From assembly GCF_037975245.1 (NCBI RefSeq), contig NC_092580.1:6980501-7044500 (forward strand): DNA of 64,000 nucleotides. Direction: 5' to 3'. A program made the translations under genes and the position numbers. Under the pieces are notes generated by a model, which was given only the letters and a program-made list of their open reading frames with translations, had not been told where the DNA came from and did no database searches. The stretch comes from Apostichopus japonicus. Its lineage: Eukaryota; Echinodermata; Holothuroidea; Aspidochirotida; Stichopodidae. How positions within the stretch are numbered: the stretch's first letter is position 1; each line of letters starts with the position of its first letter. Positions 1,008 through 28,376 of the stretch are shown here, one piece after another.

Positions 1008-4000
1008 TCAAATTCTTTGAAACAATGGAACACTAAATATTATAATCCAAATAATAAATTTGGATTTAATATCAGATGCAGACGATTGAGGGGTGGTACC
1101 AGACAGGTCCTCTTTTGGGGGTGTGTAACCGGGTAAAAATGGGCTATAGTTGATCCATACGTCCCTTTCCCCGATCAGTTCTATTAACTGGAGACAAAAA
1201 AGAAAGAAAATAAAATCATATCATATCATATTACAATATTGATGAAATTCTCAGCTCTCTATAGTGCTTTCAGTAATATGGATGCATTGCTATTTCAGTG
1301 ATATTTTTGAAGATTTCATAGATATTTCGATAACATTTTACATGTACATATTGCAAGTTGTACTTATAATAACAGTAACTCAATTATGACTGGTGAAACT
1401 AGCTGTTACCTATTTGGACTGTCACTGTTATAGTATGCTAGCGTAAATAGAACTGTTTCGAGTGTCTGGGCAAAATTTACGCATTGGTTGAAATATGCAG
1501 AAGAGAACATTGTGAACAATTCAGTCTGAACTTTGTGAACTATACAGAAGGACGAAATATAACAGAAAACAAATAAACCGATCAGACTATGCATCTATAG
1601 CACGTTACGAAAACTGAATTGTACCTTTTGGTTCCTATATCCATTTTGAGGAATACCAAACTTGAATTTCGATGGGCAATATGTTTCGCTTAGGCTGTAC
1701 CTTCCAGTCGTTTCACTTAATGTCCAAATATCTTTGTTCCCTGTATGTTGACAGGCGAAGTACAGAATCTTTGCACAGGAACTGGAGACGTGCCATCGTC
1801 GATCACTGCCGCTACATCAACAGAGGGATGAATTGACAACAAATTCACAGTATACATGTAGCCATGGGGAGGGGCCGGGGGGGGGGGGGAGACTGGTGTA
1901 ATCCCCGAAATCAAATAACAACACCCCACCCATCATACCTCACCTAGAATTAACATAATGACCACCCATGTACGGCTTGTAAGTTTAGTATTATTTTTAG
2001 ACTATGGTAACTCCAATATCTTATCCAACCATCCCTCGTTCTCTCTGTAATTCCGTGTTTACTATGCCTATAGGCCAAGAAGTATGGAGTTTCTACAGTA
2101 AAAAATTACGATGCTTGCAAAGCATCTCCACTGAGGGGATGAGGAGGGGTGAGGGATGCCGAAGAGGTCGTCCTGATCCAGAAATAAGCGAACCTTTGTC
2201 TGTAATTTTAGGGTTTAATTGCTGTAGCTAGCCATCGGTTGGTACTCAACCTTCCACAATTTCAATAGACATGATCTATGTTACAGAATCACTGTTCTAT
2301 AACTGTTCATTCAAAGAGATATCTAAACATAACATGTTATATGTCACAAGACTGCAGTCTAAAATTACACATAGGCCTATGGTTTTATTTTGCAATTAAT
2401 TTTGTTATATTAATTACCTCAAATAAATACAACTTTCTTCTTCTAAATTCTGAGATGGTTCTCCGGCAGCCCACGTGAAGACTGCTGTCTTCAGCAATTG
2501 TTGATTCACAAAATCCATCGCTGGATACTGGATATGGCATTTCATAACCTCCGTTAGATCCGTGGTAACCCCGGTTTGAGTTGGACCATCCCAAAAGATT
2601 CTTCAAAATACCAAATAAAATATCATCAAGTATTAAATACAACTTTTGTAAAACCATACAGAGCTTGCCTGTCAACAACAATATGTAAAAATGCCCAACA
2701 AGATGCCACAAGTCTAGCTTGTTGTAGTTAAAAGCTGGACAGGTAGATAGGGAGGGAGGGATATGCTGTGTTAAAAATTTCTTACTAATGATATTACTTA
2801 CGGATAGTGTGTGCCGTCGCCGTAAAGTCGCCACGTATCTCCCGGCATCTTCCCGCCACAAATAGGATATGGTGTGAACTGATGCATGAAAATAAATAGA
2901 AACGATGGTGTGAACATTTATATAAAGCTATAGGCCTAACCTCTAGGCGTAATCATTCGGAGATATAGAGTAGATGGGGGATTTACATTAATAAATAATG
3001 AATACTCAACAATCATAGTTGTCGATTTAAGTTGAACAATTTCGCCCTACTAACACACTATTCATCCCCTTCCCCCCCCCTTCCCCGTGGTAGTCCGGGC
3101 GCCAGTACGGACCAGTTGCTCATGAGTAGACTACATATATATCTACGATACCGCACATTAATGCAAATAATTAATATCGAATAAATTAAATTAAAAATGT
3201 AAAGATATTAGTCAGACCTACCGAGCGATAATTTCGGTTTGTCCAGTAAGCCTTGTGAATAGTAACACCTCCGAGATCGTCATTGGAATTGATTAGTACA
3301 ACTACATTATTACCATCCTTAATTGGATTAGAAAAAGATGGAATATTTAAGATTTACAGAAATGATTCAATTGTGCAAAAAACTGAAAAGCAATGGTTTA
3401 TATTTTAAAACACGTTAGCATAACATATAGCAGTAAACAACTTCTTGTTCAAATGAGGTTTCAAGTTATGGGGAAATTTGTAACCACCTTTGGTACCTGT
3501 TAACAATTGAAAATCTTGAAGAGGTATAGTTGGGGGAATATCGTATATTTTGTGAAATCATTATCGTCATCGTAATCGATACCGACATCGACACCGTCAC
3601 AGATATCGTTACGGACACCGTCATCCGTTACATTAGCTAAACTGGTATCATTACTTGCACACCTATATATAGAATAATCGATTACCGCTTGCAGAGTCCT
3701 CATCGTGGGCCAAACCCCATTGTACATACTCTGTAGTTCTAATGGTGTTATGATGCGATTTCCAAAGTTTTCAAGCAATGCGTTATTAACAATGTCAGGA
3801 CGGTCACTTCCAGGTCTCTGACGAAAAGAAGAAAAAGGCTTTATACACATCATAAACATTGTTGGATTTACATCCTCTGTGGCCCCATGGCATCATATGC
3901 TTGCCCCCCCCCCCAGTGGCGGAGCTAGGGGTATTGGTCAAGGGGGCGAGAATGGTCTGTAGGGGCGCTTTCGACACTATCCAAGCGGAGCGCCACCACA

Positions 4001-27100: not shown

Positions 27101-28376
27101 TAGGACGTATCGTTTGGCAACGAAAAGGAGAATTGAGGCATAAATAAAATACCCCCCTCCCCCCAAATAATAATAATAATAGTAATAATTATATATAAAT
27201 AAAAATAAGTAAATAAATAAATAAAAAAATAATATACGTGTCCATCGTCTGGTTATAATGTTGTGGATGTGTTATTATGAAGTTAGTAGATCACATATAT
27301 TTACAGTCATGTTGACTTGAATCATCTCTCTAACCCCCACCCCCCCCCCCCTCCGTCCCGTCCTCTCCCAATCCCTTCGCAAACCTTTTAAACTAGAACA
27401 TTTGTATATTCGTAGTTTTGCCACAAAAATGCACGGGTCCTTAATACTGTAGATAGTCCCGAAAGAATGTGTGTGTGATTGGTGGTGTTGTGTTCTTAGG
27501 CCTAACATGGCTATAAAGCCTACGCTAAAAGACCTTACCTCATCACAGCCTGAGTCTGCACTGAGATGAGTACATTCGATTGAAGCCACAAAACGTAATT
27601 CCTTGAGTAAGAAGGACAGAAGCTGGAAAGGGGAAAAGATATGGGTACTTTAAGGTCGTTTTATATTTAAATATGGAATATAGTCTTCTTTCTTTTACAG
27701 GGTTTGATGGTTGTACTATACCGACCTTTGCAAAGCTTAAATGAAATATCATACCTGCATTGTAGCGATGAGTCATAGTTATAACGTGTCAAAATATTAA
27801 ACGATATTTGGGAATGAAACCCCTCAGGCGAGAAGTAAAAGCAAACAAGATATAACCGATAATGGAGAAAACTATTACCGATTAGACAGAGATTCGAACC
27901 TGTAAACAAATGTCTACCATCTAGTATATACCAACATCTGCTAATGTGAGCTTGAACCAAATATTGTTTAAGTGAGCTAAGCAGAATGTCATCCTCGCCC
28001 CTCTTCCCTAAGTTTTCATTCAGGACTAAAAGTACTTACTGATTTTGAAAGGAATGGTTACTTATTCAACCCCCACCCATTCTGTCAATTCAAGACTATT
28101 CTTTACTACTTACAGACTATTATTTAATGTGATTAGCAAGCAAGGGCCTATGGTAAAGATATCAGTTAAACCTAATATAATATTAATGTTTACTAACTAC
28201 TTTGTGTCAAATAGCCGACATTCGAATACCAGACACCAAATGAAATATTTTTTTACTGGCCTAACTTTTCTATATTAAAACCTTTTTATTACACGTATAT
28301 TTTAACCATTATTTATTGAAATATTATTAAAATGAGAATAAAAACTTACCAGAATCAGGAGGTATTTATTCTCCAT
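21153..28376 (-). CDS. Secreted PI-PLC X-like phosphodiesterase, copy C (13 exons, 472 aa)
   Basis: Exons in transcription order: 28350-28376, 27539-27622, 26759-26845, 26375-26410, 25788-25827, 25365-25501, 24520-24660, 23978-24112, 23587-23694, 23129-23211, 22616-22795, 21711-21894, 21153-21329; all are in phase with GT/AG borders. Architecture matches copy B: signal peptide (MENKYLLIL plus a Leu-rich start of exon 2), segment CDECNDWGHC, PI-PLC X-type barrel with SHNAF (H80) and MRLAHMGS (H142), C-terminal Cys module (RWHVEQNC to GIICPTGYKF), VWINYSPWLPGY, and a hydrophobic tail at about residues 453-472. In exon 6 B and C differ at only 4 of about 46 residues. Exon 2 is one codon shorter and exon 8 one codon longer than in B, giving the same total length. 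An omega site for GPI attachment is plausible at the SSA near residue 449. The family call is strong; enzyme activity and substrate are inferred. Confidence 0.88.
27880..27960 (-). repeat. Possible tRNA-derived SINE fragment
   Basis: On the minus strand, GATGGTAGACA and then GGTTCGAATCTCTG resemble the A and B boxes of a tRNA-derived promoter at a plausible distance. The cloverleaf is not intact, so this is not a functional tRNA. It lies in intron 1 of copy C. Confidence 0.3.

Follow-up and report, generated by a model that had tools for sequence, protein, structure and literature searches.

A 64,000-nucleotide stretch of the genome of the sea cucumber Apostichopus japonicus (NC_092580.1, forward-strand positions 6,980,501 to 7,044,500; "the window" below, in whose coordinates positions are given unless otherwise stated) contains a head-to-tail trio of 13-exon genes, A, B and C, all on the minus strand and in the order C, B, A by descending coordinate. 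We hold, with moderate confidence, that they are intact members of an old seven-gene family whose products are cell-surface, probably glycosylphosphatidylinositol (GPI)-anchored ectoenzymes resembling phospholipase C (PLC). The gene models, the number and places of the copies, the conserved residues, and near-saturated synonymous sites with few amino-acid changes are observations; what we say of fold, catalysis, anchor and substrate is prediction.

The models were built by comparing minus-strand open frames between the copies, listing splice sites by phase, and joining the exons; the small exons and the first exon of gene A were found by separate targeted searches. Gene C (28376–21153, 472 amino acids) is composed of exons at 28376–28350, 27622–27539, 26845–26759, 26410–26375, 25827–25788, 25501–25365, 24660–24520, 24112–23978, 23694–23587, 23211–23129, 22795–22616, 21894–21711, and 21329–21153. 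Gene B (19938–12689, also 472 amino acids) has its exons at 19938–19912, 19273–19187, 18586–18500, 18092–18057, 17811–17772, 17152–17016, 16690–16550, 16236–16105, 15704–15597, 15187–15105, 14389–14210, 14059–13876, and 12865–12689, and gene A (9677–1008, 464 amino acids) at 9677–9657, 9031–8954, 8481–8395, 8125–8090, 7698–7659, 6841–6705, 5725–5585, 3817–3686, 3317–3222, 2878–2802, 2600–2418, 1811–1625, and 1187–1008. The least certain exon is the first of gene A (7 codons), one of three candidates by donor score. Every modelled intron begins with GT and ends with AG, the phases after exons 1–12 are 0,0,0,0,1,0,0,0,0,2,2,0 in all three genes, and none of the models has an internal stop. Five of the 13 exon lengths are common to A, B and C, and 11 are identical between B and C. 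A gap of 3.0 kb separates the coding parts of A and B, and one of 1.2 kb those of B and C, with the stop of A (1008) and the start codon of C (28376) as the outer limits of the array. A preliminary description of the window had proposed just such an arrangement of complete 13-exon genes, with identical phases, near-identical exon lengths, open frames and the same outer coordinates, and our models bear it out; only its term "large-intron" was overstated, the 36 introns measuring 150 to 1767 bp with a median of 408.

Several repeats lie within the array: a long trinucleotide repeat in an intron of gene A (6085–6441); a repeated stretch in intron 7 of the same gene (3914–4311 and 4491–4859), 93–96% identical in pieces and ~550–580 bp apart; an inverted repeat between A and B (10592–10768) with 67-nt arms that are 87% complementary, possibly a small transposon; and a 41–46-nt tandem repeat between C and B (20268–20548).

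The family extends beyond the window. The genome searched comprised 671,581,487 bases in 35 contigs, the published A. japonicus assembly being given as 671.6 Mb in 34 scaffolds (PMC10344927). With members C and F as queries, and with match counts that are lower bounds, we obtained at least 53 matches at E up to 0.01 (query C) and at least 57 at E up to 1 (query F). All listed matches fall on one contig (C20), at three places: the window array, 13.808–13.882 Mb on the plus strand, and 15.067–15.076 Mb on the minus strand. The total found is thus seven copies: the trio A–C, a second trio D–F 6.8 Mb from it, and the single gene G. In the 10 kb adjoining the window on its left, where further copies were looked for, no exon match was better than E 0.030. 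Exons 3–13 of D, E and F are open, with the same phases as in A–C; exon 2 was located in D and E, a motif scan found none in F, and the models of all three are without exon 1. In D, the final intron measures 20.6 kb. In G, exon 4 was not recognised, an extra intron interrupts exon 11, and the last exon is short; a few bases downstream of exon 6 (about 15.0728–15.0730 Mb) lies a partial second copy of it, out of frame with the first. This gene is diverged and may be decaying. Because the copies stand in two orientations on one chromosome, their layout suggests a single ancestral array that was later split by rearrangement within the chromosome.

Identity to the C protein is 82% for B and 51% for A, and in a tree of the seven members B and C are firm sisters (100/100), as are E and F (97/95), while A joins B and C at a weak node (72/79), D has no settled place, and G sits on a long branch. 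At the level of DNA, B and C are not close: their introns are unrelated, aligning at an identity of 43–51%, which we take as background. The preliminary description had B and C as near neighbours, which is right for the proteins and for their place in the tree but not for the DNA, and A as older and divergent, of which the divergence stands and the greater age hangs on the weak node. At synonymous sites, 19 of the 21 pairs among the seven are past the Jukes-Cantor limit. The proportion of synonymous differences (pS) is 0.735 for B–C, with a synonymous divergence (dS) of about 2.9, a nonsynonymous divergence (dN) of 0.11, and a dN/dS of about 0.04; for E–F, pS is 0.745, dN 0.23, and dN/dS about 0.06. 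The counting method used for dS can overshoot at saturated sites, so a dS near 3 is to be read as "large" and gives no date. Because the synonymous sites are near saturation and the introns are unrelated, we regard the duplications as old; the proteins, judged from these comparisons of sequence, are under strong purifying selection.

This bears directly on the proposal, made in the preliminary description, of a local expansion with a lineage-specific role; that the array is a recent, lineage-specific expansion is a reading we consider highly improbable. The head-to-tail order, the 82% identity of the B and C proteins, and the DNA identity of their exons 3 and 13 (95% and 84%) would all fit it, but they are outweighed by the B–C values of pS and dS, by introns at background identity, by the saturation of nearly all pairs, and by the spread of the copies over three places, with four of the seven at the two other places on the same contig. 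The comparison that had been suggested as a check, dN/dS between B and C, speaks for purifying selection; on the near-saturated synonymous sites and unrelated introns we rejected a recent expansion. The best reading of A–C is as part of an ancient conserved family, a solid tandem family, of a kind little studied and ordinary in its making. It would have arisen by ancient tandem duplication on one chromosome with later rearrangement within it, and its copies would have been kept by purifying selection, perhaps with short tracts of B–C conversion near exons 2–3 and 13.

The case for conversion comes from codon identity. Between B and C, 184 of the 359 codons for the same residue are identical, and these are unevenly spread over the exons: 23/26 in exon 3, 32/45 in exon 13, 14/23 in exon 2, and 25/39 in exon 7, as against 2/10 in exon 4 and 2/14 in exon 5. 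Exon 3 of gene C (26759–26845) is a possible conversion tract, sharing 83 of 87 bases (95%) with exon 3 of B. The best window of 20 codons has a permutation p of 0.0035 (20,000 shuffles), and of 0.0016 on a repeat with 5,000 shuffles; the same test gives p 0.03 for E–F and 0.23 to 0.99 for A–B, A–C, A–D and D–E. In these last four pairs 38–40% of the same-residue codons are identical, and B–C comes near that level (110/259, 42%) once exons 1–3 and 13 are left out. Similarity between B and C was looked for in the introns flanking exon 3, and none was found. Short conversion limited to the exons is the simplest reading of this pattern, although constraint at the nucleotide level may account for it instead.

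The relation of the family to phosphatidylinositol (PI)-specific PLCs is visible in two distant relatives recovered by translated searches with C: a protein from a Streptomyces plasmid (WP_329027183.1; E 7e-4) and a protein from a phage contig (E 3e-3). The latter is a clear PI-PLC, matched by PI-PLC-C1 (PF16670) at 2.5e-34 and by PI-PLC-X (PF00388) at 1.7e-8, and has a solved relative, 5fyo, named phosphoinositol-specific phospholipase C (4.8e-5). A profile of the seven members scores 39.4 bits against the Streptomyces protein (E 1.5e-8) and 30.6 bits against the phage-contig protein (E 7.3e-6), with the search space set to 1e6; these E-values are flattered, because both relatives had been chosen through an earlier match of one member. 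In a control with 2000 shuffles of each, 751 shuffled Streptomyces sequences were reported, the best at 4.1 bits, and 1175 shuffled phage-contig sequences, the best at 9.9 bits. Beyond this sequence relation to a PF16670 protein, the family carries the H-N, E-x-D and second H set of the PLC-like superfamily: H80, N81, E128, D130 and H142, encoded in gene C by exons 5–7 (24520–25827), are invariant in all seven members, and we take them, after PLC-delta1, as the putative catalytic residues.

A number of results weigh against a PLC-like enzyme. Among the Pfam PI-PLC models, none is over its cut-off in any of the seven: the PI-PLC X domain (PF00388) matches one member (E 0.077) and none of A–C at E up to 1, and PI-PLC-C1 is not listed for any of the seven at E up to 10 (HMMER filters on). 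The Streptomyces relative is itself under the cut-offs of both models (PF00388 0.02, PF16670 0.15) and, although it keeps H, N, D and H, has M in the column of E128; in the phage-contig protein E and D are retained, the column of H142 is occupied by C, followed two residues later by a His, and the first His falls outside the aligned stretch. Searched alone against the PDB, protein C gives five weak matches, to HisF-type or designed barrels (best 0.037), and the profile of the seven brings up lectins and no PLC. What is supported, at the level of sequence, is a PI-PLC-like character in the sense of a distant relation, not of Pfam membership, and the label "PI-PLC X-like" in the preliminary description is to be narrowed in this way: the profile matches and the conserved putative catalytic residues uphold the relation.

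Of all Pfam models, none is over its cut-off in the seven members. The A, B and C proteins are without a match in NCBIfam, and two PHROGs families, each matched by one of the seven members (0.0038, unannotated; 0.18), were set aside as noise. No close prokaryotic or viral relative was confirmed by tblastn in genome and viral contigs (with family alignments, and with the phage-contig protein in viral contigs only), the contig scans relying on short exact peptide patterns, which distant relatives can escape. A literature search judged on titles and the openings of abstracts turned up no description of the family. The Streptomyces protein, annotated as an FG-GAP-like repeat-containing protein, aligns over ~170–190 residues of the barrel region (best stretch 37 bits); it differs from the sea cucumber family in having a GDSL lipase domain and FG-GAP repeats, and the aligned stretch is without the lectin-like half described next. 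Compared with the PI-PLC families, whose H-N, E-x-D and H set it shares and of which the phage-contig protein, matched by both models, resembles its profile, the sea cucumber family adds a Cys-rich N-terminus, the lectin-like half, and a GPI-type tail.

Part of exons 11–12 (21711–22795 in gene C; profile positions 280–353) resembles half a C-type lectin domain. The seven-member profile, run against the PDB at E up to 10, gave 10 matches: seven CD23 lectin entries, two of collectin-11, and, best at 8.5e-4, 1wk1, which was deposited as a hypothetical protein and which we take to be a C-type lectin domain of C. elegans. The alignment spans the C-terminal half of the 1wk1 domain. A three-member profile gave five matches: 1wk1, three CD23 entries, and one isocitrate dehydrogenase. 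The Lectin_C model (PF00059) stays below its cut-off, with 13.6 of 22.6 bits in A and weak matches in four of the seven (best E 0.012). The family shares with PF00059 the pattern W..GEP - C - W - C - C, but it has only the C-terminal half and no complete domain, and the canonical calcium/sugar motif of C-type lectins, EPN and WND, is altered in the seven to EP[ST] and W[HY]V. With the motif so altered, sugar binding of the ordinary kind is doubtful.

These matches are also what gives some room to a different account, possible though rather unlikely in our estimate, in which the proteins are pseudoenzymes or binding proteins, with the barrel retained for scaffolding and with a non-catalytic surface receptor or adhesin formed by the lectin-like half and the anchor. 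Lectins alone come up in the PDB profile search, nine of the 10 matches by name and 1wk1, presumably, as a lectin domain; a position that we believe to be a further calcium ligand varies (N in B–F, D in A, E in G); and gene G looks degenerate. The invariance of H80, N81, E128, D130 and H142 in all seven members, however, is hard to explain without use, and the lectin match itself covers a C-terminal half with an altered calcium/sugar motif.

A surface location for the putative enzyme is suggested by both ends of the protein. The N-terminus is hydrophobic in A–C (the N-termini of D–G lie outside the models), and six of the seven members (A–F; G has no tail) end in a hydrophobic GPI-type tail, encoded in gene C by exon 13 (21153–21329). 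Between the two, no member has a 17-residue hydropathy mean above 0.96. Such a leader and tail, without any other strongly hydrophobic stretch, is the pattern of a GPI-anchored protein, which the members probably are, the anchor call being made on hydropathy alone. The 15 Cys in each of A, B and C also fit the extracellular character given to these proteins in the preliminary description. The product, then, would be secreted and would fold as a PLC-like triose-phosphate isomerase (TIM) barrel bearing the H-N, E-x-D and H set of metal-dependent PI-PLCs; the barrel would run on into the stretch resembling half a C-type lectin domain, and a GPI anchor would hold the protein on the outer face of the membrane. 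There it would probably act on an inositol phospholipid or glycolipid by cleaving a phosphodiester bond, with PI or a GPI anchor as the obvious candidates. A TIM-barrel phosphodiesterase that works on GPI anchors at the cell surface would have a parallel in the GDE2-type ecto-phosphodiesterases, which release GPI-anchored proteins. Unlike the multi-pass GDE proteins, the sea cucumber family shows a leader and a tail only, and no GDPD-type match is among the Pfam families listed for the seven.

Another origin, which we judge quite unlikely, would relate these animal genes to the MTC6 proteins of fungi and have them act in the secretory pathway and not in the cleavage of surface lipids. In the fungal proteins a PLC-like barrel leads into a stretch of similar pattern, W..EP / C / W / C / C, a likeness that counts for this origin, as does the name of PF25506, TIM-barrel_MTC6. 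Overexpressed GFP-tagged Mtc6 at the membrane of the endoplasmic reticulum in yeast, mentioned as an unpublished observation in PMC6892922, points the same way. Yet PF25506 matches none of the seven members at E up to 10 with the HMMER filters on. The model is also without a match in the genome, which says little, as 14 control genomes are without one too.

Elsewhere in the window, an open reading frame in 33168–44308 on the minus strand encodes a GRF zinc finger (2.5e-10) and weakly matches Exo_endo_phos, and a frame upstream of it in the same region begins an Exo_endo_phos domain, below cut-off; together they are probably one gene, of AP endonuclease 2-like type to go by these domains. A long minus-strand frame at 55514–56449 has a nucleotide-diphospho-sugar transferase domain (PF03407, 4.2e-33), and another at 58237–58848 has a DEAD-box helicase match over cut-off (3.2e-7) and looks like the start of a RecQ-type helicase. 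On the plus strand, the frame at 47483–47767 has a thymopoietin/LEM-like domain (PF08198, 4.6e-9). Two remnants resemble long interspersed nuclear elements: 36905–37180 (plus) with a reverse-transcriptase match over cut-off, and 60624–62343 (minus) with weak reverse-transcriptase and endonuclease matches below it. Outside the window, a 16,099-bp contig (C35) is the mitochondrial genome; read with the echinoderm code it shows long open frames, arranged as cox1, nad4L, cox2, atp6, cox3, nad3, nad4, nad5, nad6 (minus), cob, a tRNA-rich stretch, nad1, nad2, and 16S; cox1 was named by Pfam, 16S by Rfam, and the others from their translations. Contig C29 has COX1-like pieces at 14745–16086 and 30842–31219, either mitochondrial DNA copied into the nucleus or a leftover of the assembly.

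In its boldest form, to which we give little credence, the proposal would be that the seven genes stand for an unnamed animal family of GPI-anchored ecto-phospholipases C, in which a lectin-like half is fused to the barrel and which cut GPI anchors or PI at the surface to release anchored proteins; these ancient, strongly constrained tandem paralogues would be the animal counterpart of the GPI-cleaving PLCs of bacteria and trypanosomes. Should the proteins be inactive, they would still be a clear case of tandem paralogues whose protein identity suggests youth and whose codons and introns suggest age, and a warning that a tandem array need not be a recent expansion. Should they be active, animals would possess an extracellular PLC-like enzyme, anchored and missed by the Pfam models used here, and the family would be a candidate for the regulated release of GPI-anchored proteins in echinoderms.

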